A stretch of 64,000 nucleotides of DNA from Candidatus Poseidoniales archaeon (GTDB lineage Archaea; Thermoplasmatota; Poseidoniia; Poseidoniales; Poseidoniaceae), in assembly GCA_003602415.1 (NCBI GenBank), contig QQSK01000003.1, positions 201,469 to 265,468 on the forward strand, in the 5' to 3' direction. Positions within the stretch are counted from its first letter, which is position 1. Every line of letters starts with the position of its first letter. Of the stretch, positions 1 to 58,334 are shown piece after piece. The notes under the pieces are model-generated. The model ran no database searches. It worked only from the letters and a program-made list of their open reading frames with translations, and was not told where the DNA came from. The position numbers and the translations under genes were made by a program.

Positions 1-62
1 CTTCCCCAGGCATATTGGCATGCCCGGGTGCATAAGCAACCCCCCGACCTACCTCCCCTATA
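1..62 (-). ncRNA. Possible 5' part of SRP (7S) RNA, cut by the window edge
   Basis: Read on the minus strand, this GC-rich block in an AT-rich genome begins near base 60 with a G-rich run and the string TAGGTCGGGGGGTT, which I recall as close to the 5' domain of haloarchaeal 7S RNA. A second segment with AATATGCC and GGGG follows. Bases 5-13 pair with 20-28 as a nine-pair stem (one G-U in RNA) closing a six-base loop. A TATA-like TTCATATCA at 79-87 is at promoter distance. Against it: the conserved UGUAAY motif of SRP Alu domains is not visible, and the rest of the RNA lies outside the window. Another structured RNA, or a short reading frame starting at base 32, cannot be excluded. Confidence 0.33.
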
Positions 63-201
63 TCAAGCCATCGTACTATGATATGAAGTGAGGGGGGTGT
101 GAGCACACACAAAATAGCCGCTCAGTACATCGATTTAATATCTCCGATTATACGGTGAAAAATGCCAGTAAATACCAGTATTACAGTGAGCGGGAGTATG
201 G
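63..201. other. Intergenic segment with a possible minus-strand promoter
   Basis: The 139 bases between the zinc-ribbon/TPR gene and the left-edge RNA candidate show no credible gene. On the minus strand there is a short T-run at about 158-162, just after the stop of the TPR gene, that could act in termination. TATA-like stretches occur at about 133-142 and 79-87, the latter about 25 bases before the G-rich block. A short plus-strand reading frame starting at 162 runs into the TPR gene antisense and has no homologue I recognise. Confidence 0.3.
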
Positions 202-1485
202 TCACAAAAGCGCAAGATTTCCGGAAACAATCGCATCTGAAGAATATGGAATCAAAATCTTTTGAGCCTCTTCATCTCTTCCTAGTTGAATCAAACATGC
301 ACCAAATGCATTCTCTATCTCAATATTTGCCTTCTCTCGGTCACGTAAAACATTGAGAACTCCAAATGCCTTTTCTGCACGACCGCTGACCAATAATGCG
401 TGTGCCAAATTTAGTAGAATTGTGTTATTATTTGGATCTAATTTGGCGCTTTGTCTCAAGGCCATAATAGAGGCTTCATATTGTGAAGATGACATCGGGT
501 CACCACTAGAATCCAAATCTAAAGCTGATTGCAATAATGCGAGGCCCAAATTGTTCAAAATCTCAGGGTCATTTGTTCGATTTGATGAAGCCGTTGATAG
601 AATTTGAGCGGCTTCAACCCATGCTGATTCACCCATGTAATCAAATGCGGAATTTATCATCGATGCTAGTTCAGGCTCTCCAGATGCATCAACTGCTAAT
701 GCCTTGGCAGGATGTAGCCCCGGAGCATCATCATCTGAAGCCATTGAATCTTCGACTGGAGAGTGATGGAAATCATCGAAACTAACCTCGACATCACCGC
801 TACTCAAATCGTCATCGAAACTAACCTCAATTATTTGCTCATCTTGTGAATAAATTTCATCCATATCCACTTCTGCAGCATCGATACGCCACATATCTGG
901 TACATCTTCGACAATATCTACAGGATTTAATTCAATACTCTTGATTTCAACTGTCTCAGGAACTTGAGCCTCTACATATTCAGGGGATGCATTCAACCTG
1001 ACAACTTCGCTTCCAGGTGCCGATACCGTTTCAATTTGGGCTGCTTGTTCCTCTACATCAGATTCTACATCCTCAGTTACTGAATCAATGTCTTGTGGAA
1101 CTATTTCTTCAGGTAACTCTACGATTATTGGCTCGACTTCATCTGGTTCAACAGCAACTTCAATTTCTGATGATTCATCGAGTTCTGGACTCTCATAACT
1201 AGGAGTTATCACTTCAGTTATTTCATCACTAAACGAACCAACTCCGAAAGGAAGTGAAGATTGCAATACCTCCGCTTTAGCTCCCATTCCGAATGGTAAC
1301 ACATTCGAATTTTCTTCCTCTTCGCCATCCACACCGATAGCAGCAACAACATCATCTAATCCAGGAATAGATTCGTCATCCATCACAATATCATCAGTAT
1401 TGACATCGGTTGCGACTTGAGACCCACAAGAAGGACATGCGCCCCCTCCGAGGAACAACAATCCGCATACTCGACACTCTTGCAT
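202..1485 (-). CDS. Zinc-ribbon protein with acidic linker and TPR repeats
   Basis: A 427-residue protein of unknown function. Residues 4-20 carry a CxxC...CxxC zinc ribbon right at the N-terminus. Residues 27-265 are a very acidic, low-complexity linker rich in Glu, Asp and Val. Residues from about 270 to the end form helical tetratricopeptide-like repeats, with the typical pattern of a small residue, a Leu-Ala pair and a turn with Pro-Asn or Asp-Pro. No signal peptide or membrane segment is visible, so it is probably cytoplasmic. TPR regions bind other proteins, so an adaptor role is likely but the partner is unknown. The start is the first ATG; a TATA-like GCATATTA about 50 bases upstream suggests its own promoter. 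Confidence 0.85.
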   Translation of the reverse strand: MQECRVCGLLFLGGGACPSCGSQVATDVNTDDIVMDDESIPGLDDVVAAIGVDGEEEENSNVLPFGMGAKAEVLQSSLPFGVGSFSDEITEVITPSYESPELDESSEIEVAVEPDEVEPIIVELPEEIVPQDIDSVTEDVESDVEEQAAQIETVSAPGSEVVRLNASPEYVEAQVPETVEIKSIELNPVDIVEDVPDMWRIDAAEVDMDEIYSQDEQIIEVSFDDDLSSGDVEVSFDDFHHSPVEDSMASDDDAPGLHPAKALAVDASGEPELASMINSAFDYMGESAWVEAAQILSTASSNRTNDPEILNNLGLALLQSALDLDSSGDPMSSSQYEASIMALRQSAKLDPNNNTILLNLAHALLVSGRAEKAFGVLNVLRDREKANIEIENAFGACLIQLGRDEEAQKILIPYSSDAIVSGNLALL

Positions 1486-41170: not shown

Positions 41171-44100
41171 TCAGGCTGTATTCCTACTATCGTATCTGAT
41201 AGGAGATGAATCTCCTCTCAAACCGTCTTCTTCATCATCCTTGACTTCGAACCAATCGACCAACCAATCTCCATCAGTGTCCCAATTCAATGGATCACTT
41301 CCCTCTGCGATGTGGTCATCGTCCAAATCTAGTAGATACCAACCATATTCATGCTCTCCCAAATCAACAGCAGGCGCTCTGTTTGTATTGCCAACATAGT
41401 AAAGGTCCCAATCATCTGTTAGATCTCCTGAACACATGACAATGTCGTCACCCGAGTCTAATACAAGGAAATCAGTATCCATATCATTAATGATTAACAC
41501 ATAACTTTCATCGTCGAGATTTTTCTTATTCATACCAAGATAATTGGTTGAGTCTTCAGTAACTTCACCTAGACCTAAAGTAAAGGCACGGAATTGCCAC
41601 CATTCTGTAATTGGAGAACCGTCCCAGGTTTCACCAGAAAGCCTGACAGAATCAGGGGAATCCAGATTTGGATTTGCAATAGCATAAAACTCCATGAAAT
41701 TGGTGTAAGCAGTATATTCACAAGTCGCCCCACTGCAGTCCCAGTTTCCATCTTGGTCAGGATCTTCGTTAGCGTCAAGAGGATTTGCTGGGTTAAATGA
41801 TGCCCAAGCCCATCCAAGATTAGGTCTTGAAAGATTACCTGAATTTTGAGACAGAGGTCGGCAAGAAGCAGTAGATGATGTGCAAGAACCACCAGTAGCA
41901 GGGTCGATCCATTGTACTTCAATATTCAATCTTGAAGAATAATTGTCATTGCTTTCATTCCAGCCCTTCTCATACTCATACCAATCAGGTAGCATATCGC
42001 CATCGGTATCGTTATCCATCGGATTTATTCCATACTTGAACACTTCACGGCCATCAGATAAATTCCAATCTCTGTCATGTGAAATTACTACACCTGCATT
42101 TACCACCGTATTGAAAGTAATAGCATCACCATCTGAATCATTTGCATCCGGTCGAGTTCCGTTTAGATATTCCATATAGTTGGTAAACGGAAGGTCACCA
42201 ATTCCGCTCTGAATCACATCACCAGATGGAGTAAATTGTCTATTTTCCCATGTTCCTTGAACAGCAGGCACATCAAAGGAAGTTCTACCATACCATCCGT
42301 CGCTATCAGGGTCATAATTTACATCGAATGGATTAACTGGATTTGTAGCCCAATGATTCTGAGTAGTTGGATCTGGCATGCCATAAACAGCATAACAGAA
42401 TTCCCAACCATCATCGATTCCATCTAAATCCGAATCAGTATTTGTGGGGTCACTAATTCCGAATAATGTTCGATTGAAAGTGTTGGGGTCTTCCATATTT
42501 ATCATATTCATTCTAGCTGTGGATGTTGCATCTTTGCCACTGAATGTATTGAAAATTGCCCTTCGTGCTTCCGCCTCTGTACTTCCTTCTTCGACATAAG
42601 CATCAACTGCATCATCACCGAATCCAATCAATCCACTACCTGTGCTTAATCTTTCAGAATACTTTCCGTAAACCCTTGATTCATATTCGCGTTTATTTGT
42701 GAATTGTTCATCGAGAGAAATATTTCCATCACGGTCACAATCGACTGAATCCATATCGCTATCTAGCCATTGGTCAGAATCAATTAATGGATTCATTGAC
42801 CAACGATTATTCTCTAAATCCCAACTTGTGAACCAATACTCGAAACCATCGATCATTCCATCATCATCGGTATCTGAGATTGTTGGGTCAGTGATGCCCA
42901 TCAATGTCGAGATGAATGTGTTAGCAATTCCAGTCGATTGCCACTCTTGGAATTGATCTAGATGCCTCTTACCACGCTGACCTTTATCCAAAATTATGGT
43001 GTACACTCGTTGTGCTTTTTGAGTAGGGTCATTCAGATCACCATCTATATGCATTAGTGGGGCATCGAGAGGATGTTGCTCTCCGTTTTCAGGATTGGTA
43101 GTTACCAAGGAAAACTCTTGAGCATCGGTTAGAGCATCATTGTCTGCATCAAATGAACCATCTCCAGGGACCAATGGATTGAGAGTCCATGTTTGTGCAG
43201 TGTCATTCCATGCAGTGAACATCAATTCTAATCCATCAAGGAAACCGTCGCCATCAGTATCTGGGTTTGTAGGGTCTGTAGTCCAACCTGATACGTTAAT
43301 CAAATCCTGACCAACAAATGAACCAAATGACTCAGTGTTTGTAATTCCAGACCATTGCTGTAAGGTGAATCCACTACCAACAGTTGTCACATACCATTGT
43401 GGACTAGTTCTGTTGCTATTGGTCTCAGAAAGTGATGGGTCAATACTATTGTATTCTTCCCAGTTACTCATACCATCATCATCTGAATCATCCCATCTAT
43501 CGGTTGAATCAAGAGGATCTAGTGACCATTCAGCATCGAGAAGATGCCATCTAGCATACCATATCTCCCATCCATCAGGCATACCGTCTGAATCACTATC
43601 GGAATCGGTTGGGTCTCCAGTTGCAACACCATCTCCAAATGTGCTTTCTGGGTCAGCCCAATCTGATATATTTCTAAACAAGTCTGTTGAGAAATTGTTT
43701 GGAATCATTTCACCATCAAGAGTCATGTTGCCATCGAATAAATCATCTCGAATATGATATTCTAGCCAATTGACAAGTGCTTCATTATCTTCTATTACAC
43801 CATTGTGATTGATATCATATCCATCACCATCTGGGTTTTGGAATGCATCACTACCGTTTAGAGGATTGATGCCAACCCTGCTAACATCCCATGTACATGC
43901 ACCTCTGGCTTCCCATCCATCAGGTAATCCATCACCGTCTGAATCTACATTATTTGGATCTGAATCTGCCCACTTAGCGGCCTCAGACTCTGATTCGAGA
44001 TGGCTCTCAAGTAAATCTCCTGCAATACCTGCAGCTTTGATTAATGTCCATTGATACTCACACAGATTTGTCAATCCATCTCCATCTGCATCCCAATTTG

Positions 44101-46849
44101 CATCATCAGGATTCATAGGATCCATTGTCCAATTGTTTGAACCTGTGAATGTAGAACCAATCCATCTACGATTCTCAATTTCCCAACCATCTGGCATACC
44201 ATCACCATCAGAATCTGGGTTTGTGGCATCTGTACCAGAATCAATTCCCAAAGAACTCAGGTAAGTAGCATTTGCAGCCTGACCTGCAGCATCATCACAT
44301 ACATGCTCATGGTCATACTGATTCGTGTAATGACACCACAAAGGTGTGAATTCATGGAAGAGACCGAAGTACTCAGCACCATCACCAACGCCATCATTAT
44401 CAGAATCAACAGAACGTGGGTCCGTAGCATTGTATCCATTAGCAGTTCGAGCAGTATATCTGAATTCGTCAAGGTTTCTCCATAGCCTTTCATTGATAGG
44501 GTCTGAGTCTAAGTTAACGCCATCTCCATCAGCATCCAGTAAAGCATCCCATGGGTCTGTTGGGTCTAGGCCATATCGAACTTCCCAACCATCGAGCATT
44601 CCATCGGAATCTGAATCATTTGCCATAGGATCCATCAACTCCAAATTGGAATACATACCAGGGCCAATGCCCAAAAATATAGTTTCAATTCCTGAAACAT
44701 CATGCACTGCAATAGCAGAAATCATTCCTGGAACCCATTCTTGATTTGTCATCCCATACACTGCTGAATATCCACCGTTGAGAGACCACATACCCCATGC
44801 TGAGCCGATAATAATTTCATTTCCTGTTGAATGAATGGAGTGTATTTCATTAGCTGAACTAACCGTTACTCCATCAACTCCTTGATGCTCATAATCTCCT
44901 CCATGGATAAGTAGGCCAGTCAACAAATCTAGTCTGTGTAAGCCTGAAGGTGTTCCAATCCACAACACCTGTGATTGCCCTCCATCTGGGCCATCTGCTT
45001 CAAGAGCATTGACCGTTGCAGGATTATCTCCGCCTTGTGCCCCAATCGCTCTCAAATCATCAATGTTAGATGCGATTGAAGTTGGTTCGAGAGAATAATA
45101 AAATTTCCAATTTGGAGTTGCAGCATCTCTTGCTGTTGCTGTTTCTACTGAAAATAGTCCAACATCTGTACCCACAAATAGTGTTAGAGAACCAGAAGAC
45201 ACATCTGCATGTACTATTGATGTGGCAGTGGCATTACCTAAAGTCATAGAATCTGAAATTCCACTACCAACACTAAATTCTGTTATTGAGAACTCATTGA
45301 TTTGGAAAACTGAACCGAATCCAGCAAACCCTAATGCGATTACATAATCATCGCCACCATCAGTAATCAGCTGAGCGCCTGCAGTGTACCTGCCAGGGAA
45401 ATACGTCCAAGCAGATATGTCGTCGATTACGCCTGAATCTCTACCTGCTATCCAAACTCCATTTTCAGTAACCATGACTACATGGTTTTCGAGTAATATC
45501 ATGTCATGTAAGTCATGACCTTGAGGTAAATGATGGTCTGAACTGGTGGAATCTTCGAAATCAATAACTGTAATTCCCAACTTTGTGCCCACCCATAGAT
45601 GTGCATCATCGTCTTGCATTGAACGGATATCATGATGAATTATCGATACTTCATCACCAGTAACTTCCGGCGTCAGCAGATATTCGGCGTAAGTTCCTTC
45701 ACTCTCACCCAAACTTACAGACCTCATTCCCGATTTGACGGTATTATCATCATCAAGATGCACGAAATATTCCTCTAAAGTGGAAAGTTGTTCCCCAACT
45801 ACTAATGCTTCTTGAGAACGTGCGGCATCAGCACTAATTATTCCGTCTCTGTTAGAATCCCAACCATCATTATCCAAATCAATCAGTGCGTTGGAACGAT
45901 TCAGAGGGTCCAATCCAAAGTGGATTTCCCAACCGTCACTTATTCCGTCTCCATTGGATGGGAATAATCTACGATGCTTAACCCCATCATAGTTGAATCT
46001 GTCACTGTCCTCTGAAATTGGATTAGTACCTAACCACACATATTCGTCGATGGTATTTTCAGTTCCGTTTCTTGCACAAGCAGAAAGGATGTTTTCAAAA
46101 ACAGTATAATTGGAATTTTCACTGATGAATGGCCAGTCATAAAGAACTGATGAACCAGGATTAGGTGAATAACACCTCAAACCATCTAACTCATTTGTCC
46201 AGTTTGAAGGTGCGCCGTAATTGTATTCTTCGGGTGAAGTCAACAATTCGTTAACAGTCATGAAACCATTTCTGTCCACATCGAAACCATCTTCATCGGG
46301 ATCGTAATCTGCATCGCTAGCATTGAGAGGGTCGAAATACTCACACTCAAACCGCTTCTCTTCGTTATCAAATCCACCCAATTTTTCGCACATGTGAGCT
46401 TCGAAACCATCGGGCATTCCATCTCCATCTGTATCAGCAACACGAGGGTCGAGATACCAACGTTCTCCAGATTCATTGATTACTCCGGTCAAACCTCTGG
46501 TAAAACTAGGTTCAACACATTCGGCAGGATATGGCCAACAATATTCTTCAGTTGCATTCAAACCATCAATATCGATGTCAATAAGAGCATCTGAGGCATT
46601 ATCTCGGTCCATTCCCTTCATGATAACCGCACGATTATCGGGAGAGGAGAAGTTTATCCATTCACTGAACAAATTTTCATGGACGTCGGGAATTTTGTCG
46701 CCATCTGAATCAGTAGCAGGAGGGCGTTCTCCTTCGGTAAGATTTGGGTTAGTAGTTGCAACATTGGAGATTGCGGGCAACTGCGAAACGAAAAATAGAC
46801 CTGAAACCACTAGAATTGTCATCAAAAGCGTTGACTGTGAGCGTCGCAT
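41171..46849 (-). CDS. Giant secreted protein with calcium-type DxDxDG repeats
   Basis: A protein of about 1892 residues with signal peptide MRRSQSTLLMTILVVSGLFF. More than a dozen acidic repeats such as DSDGDGMPDGWE and DADGDGVN, spread along the chain, match thrombospondin type 3-like calcium loops, each often followed by a large aromatic module with N(P/D)xx turns. Residues around 410-740 hold repeats like a beta-propeller (LWVGTKLGITVID, ILWIGTPSGLHRLD) of the Reg_prop kind. There is no C-terminal membrane helix, so it may be released or held by other means. The GGTGAT site at 46853-46858 sets the start at 46849. Calcium-dependent adhesion or binding is likely by family analogy. Confidence 0.85.
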   Translation of the reverse strand: MRRSQSTLLMTILVVSGLFFVSQLPAISNVATTNPNLTEGERPPATDSDGDKIPDVHENLFSEWINFSSPDNRAVIMKGMDRDNASDALIDIDIDGLNATEEYCWPYPAECVEPSFTRGLTGVINESGERWYLDPRVADTDGDGMPDGFEAHMCEKLGGFDNEEKRFECEYFDPLNASDADYDPDEDGFDVDRNGFMTVNELLTSPEEYNYGAPSNWTNELDGLRCYSPNPGSSVLYDWPFISENSNYTVFENILSACARNGTENTIDEYVWLGTNPISEDSDRFNYDGVKHRRLFPSNGDGISDGWEIHFGLDPLNRSNALIDLDNDGWDSNRDGIISADAARSQEALVVGEQLSTLEEYFVHLDDDNTVKSGMRSVSLGESEGTYAEYLLTPEVTGDEVSIIHHDIRSMQDDDAHLWVGTKLGITVIDFEDSTSSDHHLPQGHDLHDMILLENHVVMVTENGVWIAGRDSGVIDDISAWTYFPGRYTAGAQLITDGGDDYVIALGFAGFGSVFQINEFSITEFSVGSGISDSMTLGNATATSIVHADVSSGSLTLFVGTDVGLFSVETATARDAATPNWKFYYSLEPTSIASNIDDLRAIGAQGGDNPATVNALEADGPDGGQSQVLWIGTPSGLHRLDLLTGLLIHGGDYEHQGVDGVTVSSANEIHSIHSTGNEIIIGSAWGMWSLNGGYSAVYGMTNQEWVPGMISAIAVHDVSGIETIFLGIGPGMYSNLELMDPMANDSDSDGMLDGWEVRYGLDPTDPWDALLDADGDGVNLDSDPINERLWRNLDEFRYTARTANGYNATDPRSVDSDNDGVGDGAEYFGLFHEFTPLWCHYTNQYDHEHVCDDAAGQAANATYLSSLGIDSGTDATNPDSDGDGMPDGWEIENRRWIGSTFTGSNNWTMDPMNPDDANWDADGDGLTNLCEYQWTLIKAAGIAGDLLESHLESESEAAKWADSDPNNVDSDGDGLPDGWEARGACTWDVSRVGINPLNGSDAFQNPDGDGYDINHNGVIEDNEALVNWLEYHIRDDLFDGNMTLDGEMIPNNFSTDLFRNISDWADPESTFGDGVATGDPTDSDSDSDGMPDGWEIWYARWHLLDAEWSLDPLDSTDRWDDSDDDGMSNWEEYNSIDPSLSETNSNRTSPQWYVTTVGSGFTLQQWSGITNTESFGSFVGQDLINVSGWTTDPTNPDTDGDGFLDGLELMFTAWNDTAQTWTLNPLVPGDGSFDADNDALTDAQEFSLVTTNPENGEQHPLDAPLMHIDGDLNDPTQKAQRVYTIILDKGQRGKRHLDQFQEWQSTGIANTFISTLMGITDPTISDTDDDGMIDGFEYWFTSWDLENNRWSMNPLIDSDQWLDSDMDSVDCDRDGNISLDEQFTNKREYESRVYGKYSERLSTGSGLIGFGDDAVDAYVEEGSTEAEARRAIFNTFSGKDATSTARMNMINMEDPNTFNRTLFGISDPTNTDSDLDGIDDGWEFCYAVYGMPDPTTQNHWATNPVNPFDVNYDPDSDGWYGRTSFDVPAVQGTWENRQFTPSGDVIQSGIGDLPFTNYMEYLNGTRPDANDSDGDAITFNTVVNAGVVISHDRDWNLSDGREVFKYGINPMDNDTDGDMLPDWYEYEKGWNESNDNYSSRLNIEVQWIDPATGGSCTSSTASCRPLSQNSGNLSRPNLGWAWASFNPANPLDANEDPDQDGNWDCSGATCEYTAYTNFMEFYAIANPNLDSPDSVRLSGETWDGSPITEWWQFRAFTLGLGEVTEDSTNYLGMNKKNLDDESYVLIINDMDTDFLVLDSGDDIVMCSGDLTDDWDLYYVGNTNRAPAVDLGEHEYGWYLLDLDDDHIAEGSDPLNWDTDGDWLVDWFEVKDDEEDGLRGDSSPIRYDSRNTA

Positions 46850-46859
46850 CGGTATCACC

Positions 46860-46881
46860 ATTGGGCGCGGTAGCACCCAAT
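46860..46881 (-). promoter_or_regulatory. 5' leader hairpin abutting the ribosome site
   Basis: The inverted repeat ATTGGG-(C)-GC-GGTA-GC-(A)-CCCAAT forms an eight-pair stem with one mismatch and a four-base loop. On the minus strand it ends one base before the GGTGAT ribosome site of the 1892-residue gene. The neighbouring giant gene also has a hairpin at its ribosome site. Confidence 0.4.
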
Positions 46882-47916: not shown

Positions 47917-48957
47917 ATGAGGTCTGACCGCAAGCCGAATGAAGACCTCGCCGTCAGCGAAGTCATCGGCGTAGTAATGCTTCTAGCCATGGTCATTACG
48001 ATGATGGGTGGAGTGTTTCTGTTCCTGACACCTTATGTCAATGATTTCCAGGATAATACAGCATGGTCGAATGCTAACGGAATTGCTGAAAGGTTGGACG
48101 GCCGAATAGATGTTGTAGCAGGTGCAAGTGCAGATACGGGGATACGCACCACTGTTTCGACAATTACAAGTTCTGTATCCCCTCTAGCAAACACGGAAGT
48201 TTGGACTGTTTCCGCAGATTTAACTGCGCTTGATACCGTGACTGTAACATATCTAAACCAGACTTCATTCAGTATTTTTTCACTAAATGAAACGGCTACA
48301 AGCATCAGTATCTGGACCCAAAGTGGGGAACAAAGTTTCAATTTTGACGCCACAAATGAAGAAGTGATAATCGATCACGAACTCAATACTGCAAGCCTAT
48401 ACATTGTGACCGTATTCAATGAGGACCTAGAAAAAATCCATAGGCATGCTAAAGTTTCAATTTCTGGACTACTAATCAAAACCAAAGTACAAACTGGAGA
48501 GCACTCAATTGCATTGGTCAACGATGCACGTTATGACAAGTTCTCAGATTCAACATGGGACATATCTACCTCTCCAGATATGAATATTGAAGAATTGTTT
48601 GATGGTACAATGCGAGCAAGTTTGTCACTTAGAACTATCAATACGGTTGGAGCCATACCTGATGGAAGAAACGCTGTTTTTGACATTAGTTCTGCAGGAC
48701 CAGTCAGCTTGTTTAGTGGGGATGCATGGAATTTTAGATTCACTTATGATTCATCATTGGGGCCAACAATCACGCCTCAGATGAATGAAGGTTGGTTAAC
48801 TGATTACACACTACATCGTGCTTCGGATACTCTGGACCAGCATCGTGGAATTAGCCCTTGGCTAAGAACCAGTGGAGCAGATGGAATGACAATCGACAAG
48901 GGTTACTCTATGATTGACCTTGAAGTCGATCTTCAAATTGTGGAGGTCAGTAAATGA
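47917..48957 (+). CDS. Type IV pilin-like protein 1 (archaeal pilin N-terminus)
   Basis: A 346-residue protein. The N-terminus has a short charged leader (MRSDRKPNEDLA) followed by VSEVIGVVMLLAMVITMMGG, the hallmark of archaeal type IV pilins cleaved by a PibD/EppA-like prepilin peptidase near LA-VSE. The rest is a beta-rich head of about 300 residues. Pilins of this kind assemble surface filaments for adhesion. The start is the ATG at 47917, since the TTG before it adds one residue. Its last codons overlap the next gene by 4 bases (ATGA). Confidence 0.85.
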   Translation: MRSDRKPNEDLAVSEVIGVVMLLAMVITMMGGVFLFLTPYVNDFQDNTAWSNANGIAERLDGRIDVVAGASADTGIRTTVSTITSSVSPLANTEVWTVSADLTALDTVTVTYLNQTSFSIFSLNETATSISIWTQSGEQSFNFDATNEEVIIDHELNTASLYIVTVFNEDLEKIHRHAKVSISGLLIKTKVQTGEHSIALVNDARYDKFSDSTWDISTSPDMNIEELFDGTMRASLSLRTINTVGAIPDGRNAVFDISSAGPVSLFSGDAWNFRFTYDSSLGPTITPQMNEGWLTDYTLHRASDTLDQHRGISPWLRTSGADGMTIDKGYSMIDLEVDLQIVEVSK

Positions 48958-51002
48958 TTCCTGGAGATTTCCGTAGAGACGAGGAGGCTGTCAGTGCGGC
49001 AGTTGCAACCGTTTTGTTATTTGGTGGAGTCATTACAATCATCGGAATTATGCTTCTATCTATGATGCCAGTTATTCAAGAACTGGAGGGCTCATTGAAG
49101 AGAAATGACATGCAAGCACAGATGGAAATAATGGGGCATGAAATCACCATGCTCTCTGAATCAGGAGTTCCAGGAGATTCGTCCGAGGTCGAACTCATTC
49201 CAGTAGATGGTGAATTGCGATGGGATAGATTACGAGGGGGAATGTGGTATTCTGCTTCTTGGTATGAGGATGATACATTCAGAATCCGAGGAGCATTAGA
49301 CTTGGATCGAAATATCGATATTCGTCATGCTGAAAGTAATGTACAAGCTGTATGCTATGAAGACATGCGATTAGGTCCAGATAGGCCATTCATATTCACT
49401 CCTAGTAGCCAAGCAGATTCCGTCTTAGTTACTCCAAAACATGGACTTACTATTCCGTTGGGACCTGTAATGATTGAACAAGCAGGTGAAGATTATTCTC
49501 TCTCGATAGGAGAAGTGATTCGATTAGATTCTGATTCACAAATAAAGTCTAGTCACGACCTGACAGGAATACAAACCAAAGGTGATTCTGGTTCGATAAT
49601 TGCGCCACCAACAAAGACCAACCCTGCAACTGGACAAGGTCAGCATTGGGCAATTCCACTTCCAGCTGGAGAAAATCATATCGAAGTTTTCGCTGATGAT
49701 GACCTGTTAGTTCAATGGGAAATTGGAACTGAGTCAGGTGATGAAGCCGTAGTCCAATCATCTGCAGTAAGGCTTGCAAATTCATGGAAGAAAACCATCA
49801 ATCTGACCCAAGATAGTTTGTTAGAAGTCATAACAGATGTGGACGCACATCTTTTGATAAACACAAACGGCCAAGGTAAGGTTTCATTATTGGGTAATGA
49901 AGGAAGTTATCTCTCTAAATATTTCATCGCCCCACATAGTGAAGGCAATCTTACTATTTCTAATCCAAACGAAAATGCTGCTACAATAACATGGAGAAAT
50001 GGAGGAGTATCGGTTCCAGCAAATCAAGTGTTATCTGTACCATGGCCTCCTACGAATATGGAAAGTGCAGCGAACATTGAGAGTAGTGAAAATGTATTGC
50101 TTCAATGGGAAACCGGAGATAATGGAATGGTAATGATTCCAGCAATAGATACTGGGCAAAGCACTGGATTGGAATTCATAGAAGATAATTCAGATGAAAT
50201 AATTAATTTCACCTCAGAGTTCGAAGATTATTCTACAAAATTAGGAGTTAGTGGAAATACTGGTAGCCTGAATTTTGAAGATGATGGAGCCATGAGATGT
50301 ATTACAATCAATCAAACCGCTTCAGGTTGGATTTCTACTACTTTACCATGGAAATCGATGACTGGCTTGCCAGAGGGTCAAATAATCACATCGTGGAGAG
50401 ATGGCGATCATCCTGCAAGTATCGAAATCAGATTGATTGGAGTTGAAGGAGAGGCCACGCATGCAAACCTTGCAACAGCATGGGCATTCCACATCTCAAG
50501 ACTGACTTACGAATTTGACACATCGATAACGGGATTAGAAGTTGCATGGAGTGCAGGTGCAATAGTAACTAACCATCCTGAATTGAACCCTGTAATTCTC
50601 GAAGGTCCAACAGATAGACAAGGACCTGGGCCAAGATTCAGTGCTACTGTTCCATCATTGCATCCAACTAAAACATCGGTCACAGGTTCGGGAACAATGA
50701 ATCTTGATATTGAATTGACGATGCGTGAAAGTCTCGCATCAACAACCGCTTACGATGTTCGCAGAGGATGGGTTGGCCCATACGGAGATGCTATTGCATC
50801 TTGGTCAAGCACTGATTTAGAGAATTCCGAAGACTGGATAGTAAACCCTGCAAATCTTGACATGTTGAAGGACTATGTTGGTTGGGTCCCAATCCCATCT
50901 CATGGTCCAAGTGAAGCAGTGTGGCATACCGGTGGCCAACCGATTCAATTTAATTTACAGATTAGTAGTCTAGATGTTCACTTATCGGAGGTGTCATCAT
51001 GA
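48954..51002 (+). CDS. Very large pilin-like protein 2
   Basis: A 682-residue protein with the same plan: charged leader (GDFRRDEEA), then VSAAVATVLLFGGVITIIGIMLL and a long outer part with beta-rich modules and many NxS/T sites. Cleavage is expected near EA-VSA. Ordinary archaeal pilins have roughly 120-350 residues, so this is exceptionally large and could be a filament tip or adhesin. The ATGA overlap with pilin 1 and the GGAGG site 7-11 bases before the start support translation coupling. Confidence 0.82.
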   Translation: MIPGDFRRDEEAVSAAVATVLLFGGVITIIGIMLLSMMPVIQELEGSLKRNDMQAQMEIMGHEITMLSESGVPGDSSEVELIPVDGELRWDRLRGGMWYSASWYEDDTFRIRGALDLDRNIDIRHAESNVQAVCYEDMRLGPDRPFIFTPSSQADSVLVTPKHGLTIPLGPVMIEQAGEDYSLSIGEVIRLDSDSQIKSSHDLTGIQTKGDSGSIIAPPTKTNPATGQGQHWAIPLPAGENHIEVFADDDLLVQWEIGTESGDEAVVQSSAVRLANSWKKTINLTQDSLLEVITDVDAHLLINTNGQGKVSLLGNEGSYLSKYFIAPHSEGNLTISNPNENAATITWRNGGVSVPANQVLSVPWPPTNMESAANIESSENVLLQWETGDNGMVMIPAIDTGQSTGLEFIEDNSDEIINFTSEFEDYSTKLGVSGNTGSLNFEDDGAMRCITINQTASGWISTTLPWKSMTGLPEGQIITSWRDGDHPASIEIRLIGVEGEATHANLATAWAFHISRLTYEFDTSITGLEVAWSAGAIVTNHPELNPVILEGPTDRQGPGPRFSATVPSLHPTKTSVTGSGTMNLDIELTMRESLASTTAYDVRRGWVGPYGDAIASWSSTDLENSEDWIVNPANLDMLKDYVGWVPIPSHGPSEAVWHTGGQPIQFNLQISSLDVHLSEVSS

Positions 51003-51469
51003 ATGGTAAACTAAAGCGTGATGAGTCTGCAGCAAGTACAGAATTGGGATACATTTTCACATTCCTTCTTGGTGTTCTATTCCTCTCGATGTTCAGCGTT
51101 TGGGCATTTGGATTGGAAACATCAACCCGTGAAAATTGGAATACTACTGCAGTTGATGTGAATATGGCTGACATCGCTGCTGCTGTTGAGCGAGCTGATT
51201 TAGCCAGCCGTGAAGATAGTAGTATCAGGTATGCAGAAGTGGTCGAATGGAGATTGACTGAAGCTGATGAATCACAATTCGTCCTTACTTTGGATGACCA
51301 AGGCATACATCTTGATCATCCCGAAAATGAATTGGACAGAGATGTTTCTATTTCTGCAACTGGTTCTGGTACATATGATGGAAGAATAACACTATCCGGC
51401 ATTACAGAGATTTGGGTTGTATACGATGACGGAGTAACTTATCTGTCAAATAAGAGACCTGATTTCTAA
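50999..51469 (+). CDS. Minor pilin-like protein 3
   Basis: A 156-residue protein that begins NGKLKRDESA and continues ASTELGYIFTFLLGVLFLSM, a pilin-type N-terminal helix with the Glu at position 5 after the expected cleavage (SA-AST E), as in many type IV pilins. The remainder is a small beta-rich head. It overlaps pilin 2 by the ATGA quartet; GGAGGTG lies 8 bases before the start. The stop codon TAA directly abuts the convergent regulator gene. Confidence 0.8.
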   Translation: MNGKLKRDESAASTELGYIFTFLLGVLFLSMFSVWAFGLETSTRENWNTTAVDVNMADIAAAVERADLASREDSSIRYAEVVEWRLTEADESQFVLTLDDQGIHLDHPENELDRDVSISATGSGTYDGRITLSGITEIWVVYDDGVTYLSNKRPDF

Positions 51470-53995
51470 TCAGCGTCCCATAACTGCAGTATGGACCATC
51501 ATTTGCACTTCTCTCATTCTAGTTTGTGCACCGAGTTCTCTGAACACTGAAAGTGCTCTTTGTAAATATTCCATGCGCCTTTGCCTATCAGGAGCAACTC
51601 CTCCTAATCTAGCCAATAACTCACCAATTTGCATACGCAAATCGTTTGCCTCTGAAATAATCAATGCCTCACGATACCTTTCCAAGGCTTCCTCAATTCT
51701 ACCACTATCTTGCAGAACTTCACCTAGTAAAATCGAGACCTCGACTAGAGCGAGAGGATCACCTGCTTCACCCATAGTGGAAAGCGCATCAGTGTAATGA
51801 TGTAGAGCCAAGTCAGCATCACCGGATTTTGCATAATATCGTCCCAAAACAGCTCTTGCTCTAGCGTGCAAGATTGGGTCATCAGAAGATTCTGAACGTT
51901 CGTATGATGATAGAGCATGGTCACGAGCACGATCATTTTCTCCTAAGTCGAGAAGAGCCCTTGCCAATACGATTTGAGCAGGAATTAGTGAATCTGAGTC
52001 ATCACCAGAGAGAATATTTTCAACTTCTGCATACGCTTCTAATGCCTTGGTATTATCTCCGCTTCTTCTGAGAATGTAGCCCATATTGTTGTATGACCTA
52101 GCAGCACCAATTGCATCACCTAATGATATGAATAATTCCAATGCTTTGCTGTGCATTTTCAAACTCGATTCTGAATCTCCTCTTTTCAATGCTATATCTG
52201 CCAAACTGGAAAGAATATCGGCAATGACATCATCTAATCCAGCAGCTTCTGCAGGAGGTCTTGCTTGGCTAAACGCTTCTTCGGCTTCATCGAAACGACC
52301 CAACAATGCAAGTACTTCACCACGCAGCCTATCAATCCTGCAAGCACTTTCGGCAGCTACTGATTTGGTATCAACAGTTTCCAATAGACCAAGCAATTCA
52401 ATGTGTCCTTCTTTAATCAGGTCCCTTCCTTGACGCACAATGATTTCGGTTGCATCCTCGTGACGAGATGATGAAATCAAATGGTAAATCAGTTCCAATG
52501 CGATTTGACTTCCAGAAGATTGCTTCTCATACCAAGATACAGCCTTGTTATGGAGTTCTTCTTTGGACTGCTTGTCCAGACTTTGTAGCAAAAACTCACG
52601 GATTAAATCGTGAACATCGTATGTATCAGAATCAGCTTGTCTTGCTAATCCTGACTCAACTAAGGAATCGAGTTCATCAATTTTCAAACCCTGTTCAGTA
52701 ATCGCTTCTAATTGGATTGGTTCACGGAAAACAGATAGGGCTCCCAACAATCTTTTTTGTTCACCTGAAAGTTTTGAAAATATTTCGATATTAACATAGT
52801 TCTCAAGAGACTCGTGGAAAGCACCTGCAGATGCACCACGATTGATTAATTCTAGGACAAGTGGATGTCCTCGACTCAGAGAGTGAATGTAAAGCAACTT
52901 TTCTTGATCCAAGTCATCAAACGCAGATAGCAGAGAGCGTGTAGAATCTTGGTCTAGACCTTCCAATGGTAATACCAATGAAACGATTCTTCCATCTGCA
53001 TCCTTTAGCGGAACTACTTCTTTGAAAGAGCGTGAGAAGATAACTAAACCTATGTCCGCCTCACATTCCACCAAACCTCTAGATATGGCCTGAATGGTTT
53101 GATGAAGCGCTTTGTCGCTCACCTTGTGATAATCATCAATCACAATCAATGCAGGAGAATTTGAAAGTGCGTCGATAATTATTCTCGAAGCATCAGAAGA
53201 TTGTGGTACCGGTGTTGCTGAAATATAATCGGCAAGCATCGAGTCTCCAATGCTCGAAAGCCAATCTGCAATGCTTTCAAAGAAAGCTCTACTTCCATCC
53301 CAATCTTGGCATCGATGATAGAGCAAGTTCCTTCTATGCATGAAGGATTCAATCACTTTTGCTGCCATTGAAGTCTTTCCAATTCCGGCAATACCTGGAA
53401 CCATCAGAGTTGTAGAACGTGCTTCTAGCAAGTTAACCATATTTTCTAATTCGGTTGAACGGCCATAGAAGTGTCTTAATCTTGGCAAATCTCCCAAACT
53501 TGTGACCAACTGCTTTTCCACATGCTTGGACAAGTCTCTTTCAACTAAATCAGCAGACAAAGATCGAACATCAAGTACGCCATTATCATCCAAATAACGA
53601 ATTACATCTACCGGTCTCATAGTGAAAGGTAACTTATCTTGGATTTCACCTAGGGTTGAGGATATTGAATTACCTCCGGGTAAAATGGCTCGTAATGGGA
53701 ATTCTCGTAACCTTTTCCAAGTCTCTTCAGCTAGTTTCATACCGGAATCTGTTAGGAAATATGCCTTCCTTTTTCGACTAACACCTTGTACGTGGGCTTG
53801 TCTTTCGACCAATAAACCCTGATCTTTCAATCCCGCAATAGCTCTCGGTACATTTGACCTAGCAATCGCAACTGCATTTGCAATACCCATTTGTGATAGT
53901 GAAAATGGTACTTCGACCGAGTTCATGAAGTCTGCAAAATCGGATAAATGTAACAATATCCTCTCTTGTACACCCGGTTTCGGATTCCCAACCAT
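51470..53995 (-). CDS. Winged-helix STAND-ATPase regulator with TPR repeats
   Basis: An 841-residue protein. Residues 10-95 form a winged helix-turn-helix (SLSQMGIANAVAIARSNVPRAIAGLKDQG) of the kind seen in MarR/IclR-like regulators. The ATPase begins with FYGRSTELE near 176, the Walker A GIAGIGKTS at 201-209 and a Walker B LIVIDDYHK near 285. From about 470 to the end there are TPR repeats (ALxxxG and DP-type turns). This MalT/AfsR-like plan fits a signal-driven transcription switch: a ligand or partner binds the TPR sensor, and nucleotide-driven assembly follows. It faces the pilin operon with no gap; control of that operon is inference. Confidence 0.88.
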   Translation of the reverse strand: MVGNPKPGVQERILLHLSDFADFMNSVEVPFSLSQMGIANAVAIARSNVPRAIAGLKDQGLLVERQAHVQGVSRKRKAYFLTDSGMKLAEETWKRLREFPLRAILPGGNSISSTLGEIQDKLPFTMRPVDVIRYLDDNGVLDVRSLSADLVERDLSKHVEKQLVTSLGDLPRLRHFYGRSTELENMVNLLEARSTTLMVPGIAGIGKTSMAAKVIESFMHRRNLLYHRCQDWDGSRAFFESIADWLSSIGDSMLADYISATPVPQSSDASRIIIDALSNSPALIVIDDYHKVSDKALHQTIQAISRGLVECEADIGLVIFSRSFKEVVPLKDADGRIVSLVLPLEGLDQDSTRSLLSAFDDLDQEKLLYIHSLSRGHPLVLELINRGASAGAFHESLENYVNIEIFSKLSGEQKRLLGALSVFREPIQLEAITEQGLKIDELDSLVESGLARQADSDTYDVHDLIREFLLQSLDKQSKEELHNKAVSWYEKQSSGSQIALELIYHLISSSRHEDATEIIVRQGRDLIKEGHIELLGLLETVDTKSVAAESACRIDRLRGEVLALLGRFDEAEEAFSQARPPAEAAGLDDVIADILSSLADIALKRGDSESSLKMHSKALELFISLGDAIGAARSYNNMGYILRRSGDNTKALEAYAEVENILSGDDSDSLIPAQIVLARALLDLGENDRARDHALSSYERSESSDDPILHARARAVLGRYYAKSGDADLALHHYTDALSTMGEAGDPLALVEVSILLGEVLQDSGRIEEALERYREALIISEANDLRMQIGELLARLGGVAPDRQRRMEYLQRALSVFRELGAQTRMREVQMMVHTAVMGR

Positions 53996-54034: not shown

Positions 54035-54048
54035 ATTCCGTGCGGAAT
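54035..54048. terminator. Hairpin ATTCCG-TG-CGGAAT overlapping a stop codon
   Basis: A perfect six-pair inverted repeat whose last base is part of the TGA of the beta-helix gene on the minus strand (54048-54050). It differs in sequence from the GAGCCC family but shares the overlap with a stop codon. The remaining space up to the regulator gene (53996-54034) has no other visible element. Confidence 0.4.
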
Positions 54049-57000
54049 CACTGTTGTGGTGGCTGATAATTTGGATCTGCTACCCATTGATTGGATTGTG
54101 CATCCCAAATCCATCCTGGATGTTGAGGTTGCGCAGCAGGAACAGGCGCTGGCGCTGGTGCCAATTCACCGGCAGCTGTTTCTGCTGCACGCGCCTTGGC
54201 CCACGCATATGGGTCCTCTTCCTTTTGCTGTTGCATAACTGCATCAGGATCGTCATCTTCGAATTCTTCAAACTCAAGGAAGAAGAAAGCACCAACACCA
54301 AGCAATACTGCGATTGCTATTACTGCAATGACAATCCAAATCCAAGTTGGTAGACCATCGGACAAGGTTTCTCCACTCTGGAGAGTAATCTCTGAGTTGT
54401 CATCCTTACCAATGAACTGTCCATCCTGAGCGAAGTAAATCTGGTAATCTCCATCATCGCCTAATTGCGAAGATGATATTTCCATAGACCAAGTTCCGTC
54501 TGCGCCGACAACTGAAGTGTTCAGTAAGGTATCACCTTTCAACAATCGAGCCTTGACCTGAGAGTTAGGTAGTCCAGTTCCCTCAAACTGTGCAGAATCA
54601 CCAAATACGACTGAACCTGTGTCAGTTCTTTGAGCTGTAAATTCAACTCCCTTAACAATGAAATTGACTTGATAAGAGTACACTACCGAATCATGAATAT
54701 CTCTTCCTTCAAACATTACATTCAGCATGGACCAATCTTCATCCTCACTGGAGGTTTGGTACATTGAATCCATTGGATTGTAAATTGCCTTGCCTTCAGG
54801 AGTAATTCGAATGTGGTAAGCATAAGCATCATCGATTAATGTTGATGGGTCATCATAAATATCGAAAATCATGTGACTTGATTCCGGACCTACACCATCT
54901 GGATCGTTGAAGAAATCAAGCAGATTAATTTCTACTCCTTCTCCACACTTATCGAATGCTGTTGACTTTTCATCACAGAATATGGTAACTGTGTCAGACC
55001 ATCCAGATGCATTGAATGTCGGTGCGATGTTATCTGCATCTGTTGGATTGTCGATGACAATTCGTACAGTTTCAATCATTGAGTAATCTACACCATCGTA
55101 TGCACGTACATTGACCTCATACTGCTGGTCATGAATCAAATCGCTAGTGTCCCAATAAGTCATCCAAGCACCATTTGGTAGGAAGGATGTTACTGGATCT
55201 GGTCCATTGTTCAATTCAATGCCACTAGCCAAATCAACTATTGTGATTTCAACTCTAGTTACTTGGCCATCGTTATCTCTGGCTACTCCACTGATCAGTG
55301 TTTCTTCAGATGCACGAACACTTTCCATTGGTAGAGGTTCACTGACCTGAACAATAGGAATTCTGTTATCGTTGTCAATAATGATAGTAACCACATCTGG
55401 AGTGCAGACATCTATTGCTTCATGACAGTAATTTGAATCGCTAGCCCAAACAGTGAATGTGTATGAACCACTTGGAAGGGATGAGAAGTTCCAAGAATCC
55501 GCCCATGTAGTTCCACCGCCACTATTTGCAGGATAGTTTGCAGAGTAGTTGTTAGGACCAACTACACTGAACCAAATATCCCTGATATCATTTCCTTGCA
55601 CTCCTTGGTAATCATCAGAGGCTGTACCACTGAACATCACTTCTTGCCCATCATGGGTTGAGGCATCCAAAGGAGCTTCAAGGTTGATTGAAGGTGGATT
55701 GATGTTTAACTTGAAAATTCTAGTTGTAGTGATAGATTCATCCAGTCCATCGTGGGAACGAATACGGAAAGTAACATCCTCTTCGAAGTGGTTTGCCATG
55801 TCCCAATCAAAACTCCAGGTCTTGAATGGCCAGTTGGTCATTGTGACCTCTCCATTGGCTCCTGAAGTATCAGTTGCAAGGTACCAATCTAGGCTACCAT
55901 GAGGCTGAATCTCAATTCTCTTGACTTCACCGAATTGCTTCAACCAAGAGTCATAATCGTTGAAGTAAGGACCTTCTACACCGTCGAATGCAGAACCTGT
56001 CAGAGAGATTGTTCTAGCAAAGGAAGTACCATCATTTTGATCAACGCTAACCGAAGGTGCAGTATTTGTTAAACTGATTACTTCGTCAACCATTCCTGTT
56101 AGAGTGAATACGTGTTCTGAAGTACCCTTACCGAATTTCTTACCTTCGACTGAATAAGTAGGCATTTCACGGTTACCGTTTTGACAATCAGGGTCTTGAC
56201 CATCTTTCAAAGTGTCACCATCATTGTCTGCACCATCACCACAGGAATCTTCTCCTGGGTCGGTCGCAACGTGATTCCAGTTAGTATCGATGTGGAAATT
56301 AGACGGCAGTGTTACCCATGGAGTGTATCCATAGGAATCTGTAGTCATGTTGTAGAGCGACTTGCCGTTAGCATCCTTGATTGTAACCAAAGCATCCGAG
56401 ACTTGTGAATTGTCTGCTTTAACCTGGTAACGCACTAACTCACCTTGCTCGACTTGAACACCCCATGCAGTGTTTTGATTCTGAATGTGAATCTTTGAGC
56501 GGTCGAAATTCTGAATATCAGAATATGTGAAAGTGGTAGCATTTTGGTTAACTTCCATCGATAATGGCATGAAACGAGGAGGCCAATCTGCAGTCAGTGG
56601 GGCCTTGATACATTCATCAGCATCCCAAGGACACTCAGCACCAAGCCATGATAGGGATACTGGATACATTTCTCCTGCCCCTGGGTCTGGCATAAATTCG
56701 CTCTGAACAGCAACACGAGATTCTGTTACATTGTAAATCTGAGAAGCGTTAGAGTATGTGTTCTCTGAGAAATATGCGATTGAACCGTACTTGTTACCAT
56801 AATTATCATCGTAAAGTGAGATGTTGGCAGCAAACCCTCCAACTTCGATGTTGTTTCCTTGAGCGTTTACTATACCGCCTTTGATTCTAAATCCATCACC
56901 GATATTGTTGGTGACTGTATTGTCGATGAATGTAGCAGAAGACATGTAGACGTGGAATGCTGGACAAGGGAAATCTCCCCCGTACATGTAAACAGAGTTA

Positions 57001-58334
57001 CATGTTCCTGTGTTGTTAGAAATTACATTGTTTGCGAAATATAGGCGAGCTTTAGTGGGAGCAGGAACGTTCCATCCCTGGTCTTTATGGTGATATTCTC
57101 CAATCAGTACAGGCTCTTTTGCGGTATTCAAGATTGTGTTGTTTTCTGCAGAAACATCGGATTCACCGTAAATCCAGATTCCATTCCATCCACCAATAGG
57201 ACCGATTGTATTTTCGTTTGCAGTAACCATTGAGGAACGAATTCCAAATCCTGAACCTTCAGCAGAGCCCGATATGACATTTCTTTCAGCAACAACAATT
57301 GCACCATCATAGGCAGTAATTCCTGCACCGTCGGTTGGAGTGATTGCATTGTCCGAGATTACGAAAGTGTAGTCTTGGTCATTTGCAGAAAGATGTGAGT
57401 TGGTATCTATAGCGTTACACTTGGTGGTGATTGTGGAATTGGTCAGGTAACCACTGCTTGCTCTTAGGAATGCTCCATATGAGTTTTCTGTGATTGAAAT
57501 TTGATCCATTCTTACGAATGAATTCTCCAGGTAAATTGCAGAGCGTCCTCCTCCTTGAGAACCACAATCGGTTTCTTCACCAGAAAACGCCGAATTAATC
57601 ACTTGCATTACAACTAATCCTGCACCTGCTCCGTAAGCCTGTATTGCTGCGCCGTGGTATCCTTGCTCATCTATTCCAACTTCAAAGGTACCACCGTCAA
57701 GTGTAGGAGATGCCCCACCAAATGCCAATACATTTGTTGTATTGATATCCTTGAATGTGGGGTTGGTTACCGAAAGACTTGCACCATCGAAAATCATTGC
57801 ACCGTATTTGATTGAACCTTGGCCATCGATATCGACTGGGATTCCATAAGCACCATCAAGTGTTACGTGGTTCATCTTGGTTAATGATTGGTCAATAGTG
57901 GATGCTAGATAAATTCCTGAACCACATGACATATCTGGATTGAATACCCCAGTTACATAGCATCGTCCAGTTTGGTTAGGAGCAGGTTCTGCAGCAGTTC
58001 CCCAAATGAATCTGATAGGAGAGCCTGTGCTTGCTTGAGTAGCACCACATGAGGAATCACCAGCACAGATTGAGCCTTGAATCTGGATGTTCTTGTCAGC
58101 TGGTACATTGATAGTTGTTCCAGCGTTGATAATCAACTTCGCACCACCTGCAACCAGTAGATCACCATCAAGGTTCATTACTCCAGTCCATGTTTCAGTT
58201 CCGGTAATGGTTCCAGATGTTGTATCATTTACTGCGACTGCTGATGGAGCAGTAGATACCATTGCTACGAATAGCGATAACATGAATAAACTGACCAGAC
58301 CAATGCTCTTACTTCTTTGAACGTTCAACGACAT
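54048..58334 (-). CDS. Surface protein with beta-helix, Ig-like modules and anchor
   Basis: A 1428-residue protein. The signal peptide ends near residue 35 (VSTAPSAVAVN). Residues of about 45-600 contain right-handed parallel beta-helix repeats (NVISNNTG, NTITNN-like). A segment near residue 690, CGDGADNDGDTLKDGQDPDC, is an acidic Cys-flanked loop. Several Ig/cadherin-like modules (GTASDDYQG, GVARDNDGQV) follow, then a transmembrane helix (TWIWIVIAVIAIAVLLGVGAF) and a Pro/Ala-rich tail ending GWIWDAQSNQWVADP. Beta-helix proteins often bind or cut polysaccharides; no active site is evident. GAGGGTG is the ribosome site before the ATG at 58334. Confidence 0.85.
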   Translation of the reverse strand: MSLNVQRSKSIGLVSLFMLSLFVAMVSTAPSAVAVNDTTSGTITGTETWTGVMNLDGDLLVAGGAKLIINAGTTINVPADKNIQIQGSICAGDSSCGATQASTGSPIRFIWGTAAEPAPNQTGRCYVTGVFNPDMSCGSGIYLASTIDQSLTKMNHVTLDGAYGIPVDIDGQGSIKYGAMIFDGASLSVTNPTFKDINTTNVLAFGGASPTLDGGTFEVGIDEQGYHGAAIQAYGAGAGLVVMQVINSAFSGEETDCGSQGGGRSAIYLENSFVRMDQISITENSYGAFLRASSGYLTNSTITTKCNAIDTNSHLSANDQDYTFVISDNAITPTDGAGITAYDGAIVVAERNVISGSAEGSGFGIRSSMVTANENTIGPIGGWNGIWIYGESDVSAENNTILNTAKEPVLIGEYHHKDQGWNVPAPTKARLYFANNVISNNTGTCNSVYMYGGDFPCPAFHVYMSSATFIDNTVTNNIGDGFRIKGGIVNAQGNNIEVGGFAANISLYDDNYGNKYGSIAYFSENTYSNASQIYNVTESRVAVQSEFMPDPGAGEMYPVSLSWLGAECPWDADECIKAPLTADWPPRFMPLSMEVNQNATTFTYSDIQNFDRSKIHIQNQNTAWGVQVEQGELVRYQVKADNSQVSDALVTIKDANGKSLYNMTTDSYGYTPWVTLPSNFHIDTNWNHVATDPGEDSCGDGADNDGDTLKDGQDPDCQNGNREMPTYSVEGKKFGKGTSEHVFTLTGMVDEVISLTNTAPSVSVDQNDGTSFARTISLTGSAFDGVEGPYFNDYDSWLKQFGEVKRIEIQPHGSLDWYLATDTSGANGEVTMTNWPFKTWSFDWDMANHFEEDVTFRIRSHDGLDESITTTRIFKLNINPPSINLEAPLDASTHDGQEVMFSGTASDDYQGVQGNDIRDIWFSVVGPNNYSANYPANSGGGTTWADSWNFSSLPSGSYTFTVWASDSNYCHEAIDVCTPDVVTIIIDNDNRIPIVQVSEPLPMESVRASEETLISGVARDNDGQVTRVEITIVDLASGIELNNGPDPVTSFLPNGAWMTYWDTSDLIHDQQYEVNVRAYDGVDYSMIETVRIVIDNPTDADNIAPTFNASGWSDTVTIFCDEKSTAFDKCGEGVEINLLDFFNDPDGVGPESSHMIFDIYDDPSTLIDDAYAYHIRITPEGKAIYNPMDSMYQTSSEDEDWSMLNVMFEGRDIHDSVVYSYQVNFIVKGVEFTAQRTDTGSVVFGDSAQFEGTGLPNSQVKARLLKGDTLLNTSVVGADGTWSMEISSSQLGDDGDYQIYFAQDGQFIGKDDNSEITLQSGETLSDGLPTWIWIVIAVIAIAVLLGVGAFFFLEFEEFEDDDPDAVMQQQKEEDPYAWAKARAAETAAGELAPAPAPVPAAQPQHPGWIWDAQSNQWVADPNYQPPQQ

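Follow-up and report, generated by a model that had tools for sequence, protein, structure and literature searches.

Three overlapping genes for pilin-like proteins, here called P1, P2, and P3, lie in a 64,000-nucleotide stretch of the genome of a Candidatus Poseidoniales (Marine Group II) archaeon (the window; Table 1). In this study, we found that these genes very probably supply the prepilins for a single archaeal type IV pilus; its machine (PilB, two TadC proteins, and two small pilin-like proteins) is encoded on another contig of the same genome, C5. These three genes (the trio) most likely form the pilin set that belongs to the C5 pilus and has become detached from it, because genes of the P1 and P3 types adjoin a PilB gene in related genomes and that PilB is closest to the C5 PilB. 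The type of pilus is known from archaea; its giant subunit, P2, has so far been found only in this order.

The host genome comprises 1.89 Mb in 22 contigs and is about 89% complete; the window lies on contig C16 (335,668 bases). T2SSE and T2SSF matches fell on contigs C5, C12, and C20; C18 has an ATPase only. The names given to these loci beyond the Pfam matches are our reading of the sequences. At C5, PilB-TadC-TadC precede two small pilin-like genes. The gene order on C20 points to the archaellum locus. On C12 (L044:6442-8987), a TadB/TadC/ATPase group has no directly adjoining pilin gene, and a PilA-type gene is found some 6 kb further along. The C18 ATPase (L047:8164-9519) is VirB11/PilT-like, stands on a contig without a T2SSF match, and is probably not a pilus motor. 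Peptidase_A24 gave one match, on C2, at 23.7 bits, below the cut-off of 26.5. This open reading frame (ORF) contains D-H-K-E-R-R-V-P-N and G-G-A-D-C-K, both of which we take to resemble the aspartate motifs of PibD.

To the related loci we turned with a P3 alignment, which was searched against 391 genomes of the phylum. Outside Poseidoniales it gave six weak matches (E 1.6e-4 to 0.008), and all six places were fetched. Three of them (L183, L184, and L185) belong to family f3 of the same class and represent all three f3 genomes with a P3 match. Each showed one run of a P1-type gene, a P3-type gene, PilB, TadC1, TadC2, and two small pilin-like genes, with no giant gene between P1 and P3 in any of the three. 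The P1 of L185 matched DUF7289 at 37.6 bits, above the cut-off of 27, and the PilB of L183 passed PilB3_C (39.1 bits, cut-off 27). In L186, a P3-type gene (DUF7266 25.9 bits, below the cut-off) is followed by a gene for 278 amino acids (aa), PilB, TadC, a fused TadC, and a small gene. In L188, PilB and TadC directly follow a P3-type gene, and L187 has a P1-type gene (DUF7289 29.4 bits) with a P3-type gene on a stretch without PilB.

PilB was compared for L183, L185, L186, and L188, with L184 left aside. These proteins were 56%, 56%, 60%, and 51% identical to the C5 PilB, respectively, as against 33-36% to the host FlaI and 30-34% to the host C12 ATPase. TadC1 and TadC2 of L183, L185, and L186 paired one to one with their C5 counterparts at 37-51% identity. 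The Poseidoniales P1 aligned with the f3 P1 over 268 columns (E 2.4e-7). The gene order in kin strongly supports, as far as sequence comparison goes, the trio as the pilin set of C5. The original prediction had advised looking for assembly genes elsewhere in the genome; they were found on C5, and this gene order ties them to the trio.

A comparable linkage occurs in haloarchaea. A Halobaculum halophilum plasmid carries PilB-PilC-DUF7287-DUF7288-DUF7261-like-DUF7266-DUF7289 in one run. DUF7266 is likewise downstream of PilC in two further haloarchaeal plasmids (L196 and L197), scanned up to but not including their last genes. As described by Makarova et al. 2016 (PMC4858521), clade 2 has a minor pilin, arCOG02911, of variable length (about 250-550 aa) that is prone to duplication; we liken DUF7289 to it by that paper's description only. 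The same paper proposed that ATPase/TadC modules can work with pilins from other loci; the trio and C5 are arranged in this way. With the euryarchaeal clade-2 type IV pili (PilB3/PilB4-like), as portrayed there, the present system shares an ATPase that may be PilB3-like, TadC, and several pilins. It differs from them in that P1 and P3 are detached, TadC comes as two proteins, and there is an extra pilin of 682 aa.

The trio itself had been described in the original prediction as three overlapping, ATGA-coupled pilin-like genes with a 682-residue second member and no assembly genes nearby. The ORFs and joints of the window bear this out: ATGA overlaps are present at both the P1/P2 and the P2/P3 joint, and T2SSE, T2SSF, and Peptidase_A24 had no match anywhere on C16. 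No archaellum genes (archaellin, FlaF/G/H/I/J) stand beside the trio in the window. A mechanical ORF list places the P1 start one codon upstream, at TTG 47914. A collection scan with P2 as the query found 185 relatives, of which 80 were kept; 33 of these loci, complete, free of unknown residues, and thinned for variety, were chosen as rows of alignment A4. The P2 start codon lies over the P1 stop in 33/33 relatives (ATGA 31, GTGA 1, TTGA 1), and therefore the overlapping joints are no chance arrangement. The P2/P3 joint read ATGA in 26, TTGA in 4, GTGA in 2, and TAATG in 1.

The surroundings were also kept. In 13/13 relatives with wide flanks (L050-L053 and L055-L063, the short-contig L054 being left out), the order was a TSP3-repeat giant, a metallo-beta-lactamase-fold (MBL) gene, P1, P2, P3, an HTH-AAA-TPR regulator, and a beta-helix protein, within the span of each locus. 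A simple ORF picker missed P3 in L058 and L059, as well as the MBL gene in L058; these genes were present on re-reading. A synteny comparison had been suggested earlier, together with the possibilities that relatives might lack cleavage sites or that the trio might not be conserved as a unit; we found that the three genes stay together and that their leader motifs are kept.

Next to these leaders, family matches and models were considered. P1 matched DUF7289 at 28.3 bits (cut-off 27) and P3 matched DUF7266 at 28.0 bits (cut-off 27.6), both only just above the Pfam threshold; P1 also matched Pilin_N weakly. At the leader and helix start, V-S-E of P1 was conserved in 29/29 rows; in P2, R8 was conserved in 34/34, A12 in 32/34, and V13-S14 in 34/34; and in P3, D8, A12, T14-E15, and G17-Y18 were conserved in 12/12. 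The class III prepilin signals of P1 and P2 are near canonical at the sequence level, and the cleavage site of P3 is less so. Long N-terminal helices were predicted in the P1 and P2 models. These features suggest that the leaders of all three proteins would be cleaved. The five P1 models varied in mean predicted local distance difference test score (pLDDT) from 81.5 to 63.8. Foldseek returned zero matches at E<=0.001 with the P1 model, and VIA-align gave no Z of 8 or more with the P1 and P2 models. Neither tool gave a convincing whole-protein match; archaeal pilins did not occur among the 50 matches listed, and this does not show that such matches are lacking.

We investigated the distribution of P3, C5 TadC2, and FlaJ in 164 Poseidoniales genomes at least 80% complete, with tallies made by hand. 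P3 was present in 105/164 and TadC2 (E<1e-20) in 98/164; another 15 TadC2 matches of 1e-6 to 1e-3 were read as cross-matches to other T2SSF proteins and set aside. Both were found in 97 genomes, TadC2 only in 1 (G057), P3 only in 8, and neither in 58. By genus, the trio and the C5 machinery occurred in the same 14 of 22 genera. P3 matches in four genomes of trio-less genera (E 0.001-0.004, about 30 residues, in ORFs of >1000 aa) were read as spurious. FlaJ (E<1e-20, one weak match set aside) was present in 108/164 genomes: with P3 in 92, without it in 16, P3 without FlaJ in 13, and neither in 43. Genus g7 had the trio and no FlaJ match in 3/3 genomes, and g4 and g22 include genomes with FlaJ and without the trio. 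The distributions of the archaellum and the C5 pilus differ.

These counts bear on whether a different host machine assembles the trio, either the archaellum (C20) or the C12 Tad-type ATPase/TadB/TadC. Both machines exist in the host genome, and archaeal PilB/TadC modules are described as able to serve different pilin sets (PMC4858521, PMC6491452). We nevertheless regard such an assembly as improbable: FlaJ, profiled for the archaellum, and P3 each occur without the other, and in kin the PilB adjoining P1/P3-type genes resembles the C5 protein most. It is still harder to credit that the trio consists of membrane-anchored surface proteins with a pilin-like signal that never polymerise. The genes flanking the trio do encode large predicted surface proteins, and PibD-type signals also occur on non-pilus proteins. 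However, the P1- and P3-type genes are linked to PilB/TadC in kin, and the trio is missing from the same genera as the C5 machinery.

The absences themselves were traceable. In 16/16 loci fetched from the seven f2 genera without the trio, the MBL gene adjoins the regulator (<=30 bp or overlapping), and the TSP3-type giant still lies beside the MBL gene in 16/16. In a regulator tree of 35 rows, the 16 trio-less rows formed one clade with support 100/100. Since the MBL and regulator genes abut in each of these 16 loci and the rows form one clade, a single loss of all three genes as a block is the simplest account; the genera concerned lack the C5 machinery as well. In f1, three genomes scored as trio-less (G057, G081, and G124) also lack the regulator, so the absence of the trio there may reflect contig gaps. 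The absence in g18 concerns one incomplete genome, which lacks the regulator too, and was not used.

Several observations weigh against assigning the trio to C5. Since the sampled trio-less genera form one clade, the co-occurrence amounts to about one evolutionary event, and the 164 genomes are not 164 tests; a Fisher test over them is pseudo-replicated for this reason and was not counted as support. The profiling covered P3 and, of the three machines, those of C5 (TadC2) and the archaellum (FlaJ). In the family models, the C5 PilB scored 21.4 bits against PilB3_C (cut-off 27), and the two small C5 genes matched no Pfam pilin family above cut-off. The P1 of L183 reached 25.6 bits for DUF7289, just under the cut-off of 27, and the f3 P3-type proteins failed DUF7266 (21.3 against 27.6 bits in L185, no match in L183). 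The Poseidoniales and f3 P3 aligned over a short span of 32 columns only (E 9.4e-7). Profiles of P2 and P1 aligned over 46 N-terminal columns only, and a DUF7289 origin of the P2 body would have no alignment to draw on beyond the N-terminus. Finally, the pairing of C5 with the trio may not be exclusive, because the Haloferax PilB3-C3 can serve more than one pilin set: as reported by Legerme and Pohlschroder 2019 (PMC6491452), it rescues a pilB1-C1 mutant.

We propose the following for the trio as the C5 pilin set. P1 (DUF7289) and P3 (DUF7266) would be old partners of a C5-type machine, which they still adjoin in kin. In Poseidoniales, they are encoded away from the machine, with the third, giant prepilin P2 between them. 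A PibD-type peptidase would cut the short charged leaders, and through PilB and TadC the three helices would enter the filament as a set of minor pilins, initiating or decorating it. The filament shaft would probably be made from stand-alone PilA-type pilins. The large variable beta module of P2 would be exposed for attachment to particles or cells and might be held together at its base by a disulfide between Cys134 and Cys449. Incorporation of the trio in the filament, its tip position, and adhesion are predicted steps.

P2 matched DUF7289 at 23.8 bits (Pfam cut-off 27) through an N-terminal match alone; judged from its sequence, it is DUF7289-like at the N-terminus and not a family member. 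Pfam recognised no extra domain in it. Searched with the A4 profile, 95 of the 391 phylum genomes gave strong P2 matches (E 1.2e-63 or better), all of them Poseidoniales; outside the order, three matches (G234, G292, and G186) were short and weak. The sensitivity of this search is limited, as no more than two candidate places were scored in each genome. Among these 391 genomes, full-length P2 was found only in the order Poseidoniales. Mean column identity was about 0.7-0.9 at aa 1-100 and 501-680 and 0.39-0.62 at aa 181-440. Cysteines other than Cys134 and Cys449 occurred sporadically, in 3 of 34 rows, and the two conserved residues may form a disulfide. The structure model had a mean pLDDT of 82 and a predicted template modelling score of 0.82, with aa 621-650 poorly predicted. 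Its part at aa 205-306 resembled jelly-roll domains with Z <=7.4 (root-mean-square deviation (rmsd) 3.6 over 85 aligned residues), which is the level of a common arrangement. Foldseek gave 11 matches with P2 at E<=0.001, all with a low TM-score and an rmsd above 14. An internal repeat in the P2 middle was rejected, as hhalign of sub-blocks reached at best E 0.0025 with a probability of 11.8%. P2 may thus be read as a pilin helix and base carrying a large variable module between Cys134 and Cys449.

The original prediction had offered a filament with a large adhesive tip or a secretion pseudopilus. The three proteins most likely belong to a type IV filament, and the pseudopilus found no specific support, the machinery being of the archaeal PilB/TadC type. 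P2, with its variable, mostly beta part after the pilin helix, fits the suggested tip; it is probably modular and adhesive, and an adhesive or tip module is plausible. It is conceivable, although we lean away from it, that P2 is instead a non-adhesive structural or priming minor pilin or a secretion piston, with its size reflecting subunit contacts rather than ligand binding. The ends of P2, including the last 180 residues, are strongly conserved, which fits contacts with P1 and P3, and large GspK-like minor pilins with an inserted domain have a proposed position at the pseudopilus tip (PMC8179133). On the other hand, P2 is least conserved in its middle (aa 181-440), as expected of an exposed module, and PilB/TadC is the only machinery found. 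Priming and adhesion would also be compatible with each other.

Modular pilins have been defined with Streptococcus sanguinis PilB, and GspK is discussed in the same context (PMC8179133). P2 resembles the PilB described there in combining a pilin helix with a bulky, presentable extra part; it differs in that this part has no Pfam family and is apparently internal rather than C-terminal, and in that P2 is archaeal. The word 'archaea' is absent from the main text of PMC8179133. The GspK-GspI-GspJ pseudopilus tip, as outlined there, likewise consists of three prepilins, one of them larger with an extra domain; its machinery differs, and the likeness is drawn from the descriptions. We tentatively suggest that P2 could be an order-specific modular pilin, convergent with GspK/PilB-type tip pilins, with a disulfide-stapled variable ligand-binding module that attaches Marine Group II to phytoplankton-derived particles via a non-archaellum type IV pilus.

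Among the planktonic archaea of surface waters, Marine Group II are the most abundant and have no cultured representatives, according to PMC6461757 and PMC6336850. Their attachment has been tied in these papers to archaella and flotillin, and in PMC6461757 also to thrombospondins. In the accessible text of PMC6461757 the single 'pili' passage is a reference, and 'pili', 'pilus', and 'pilin' are absent from the main text of PMC6336850. 'Type IV pili' appears in PMC8821943 and PMC12413366 in the reference lists only. A literature search found no paper on DUF7289/DUF7266, and no description of a type IV pilus of Marine Group II was found in the literature searched. A type IV pilus distinct from the archaellum and bearing a lineage-specific giant subunit would offer a concrete, testable attachment device for this group. 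It would also exemplify pilins that are encoded away from their machinery and were later lost, most simply, as a clean three-gene block in machinery-less genera. PMC6336850 describes glycoside hydrolases for oligosaccharide degradation as confined to MGIIa (a Marine Group II clade) and three basal MGIIb subclades. The trio likewise occurs in f1 and in those f2 genera that do not belong to the trio-less clade; as the two sets of clade names differ, this is a lead only.

Table 1. Features of the pilin-like trio and its neighbours, in window positions
Feature	Nucleotides	Residues	Strand	Description
P1	47917..48957	346 aa	+	ATG start; DUF7289-family type IV pilin-like protein
P1 predicted leader	47917-47952	1-12	+	From sequence
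P1 helix		10-68	+	From structure model
P1 Ig/FN3-like strand arrangement		105-180	+	Weak structural match; beta strands after helix
P2	48954..51002	682 aa	+	Giant pilin-like protein
P2 predicted leader	48954-48989	1-12	+	From sequence
P2 helix		10-70	+	From structure model; mostly beta body follows
P2 Cys134 codon	49353..49355	134	+	Conserved in 34/34 rows
P2 middle region, proposed grafted module	49374..50285	141-444	+	Contains the least conserved stretch, aa 181-440
P2 jelly-roll-like part		205-306	+	From structure model
P2 Cys449 codon	50298..50300	449	+	Conserved in 34/34 rows; proposed disulfide partner of Cys134
P3	50999..51469	156 aa	+	DUF7266-family type IV pilin-like protein
P3 N-terminus			+	Charged, then conserved T-E-L/I-G-Y helix start; from alignment
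Giant TSP3-repeat protein	41171-46876	1901 aa	-	Flanks locus
HTH-AAA-TPR (MalT/AfsR-like) regulator	51470-53995		-	Tail-to-tail with P3
Beta-helix protein	54048-58334	1428 aa	-	C-terminal hydrophobic stretch; flanks locus

Among the neighbours, the regulator (E<=1e-100) was present in 160/164 Poseidoniales genomes irrespective of the trio, and a link between the two was rejected. Elsewhere in the host genome, positions 116032-119421 of C2 (L048:16033-19422, minus strand) belong to a surface-protein frame of 4690 aa from stop to stop with an Ig-type domain. An apparent membrane helix at its end is followed by an in-frame PilA-type pilin, and this frame may represent a fusion or an in-frame second start.

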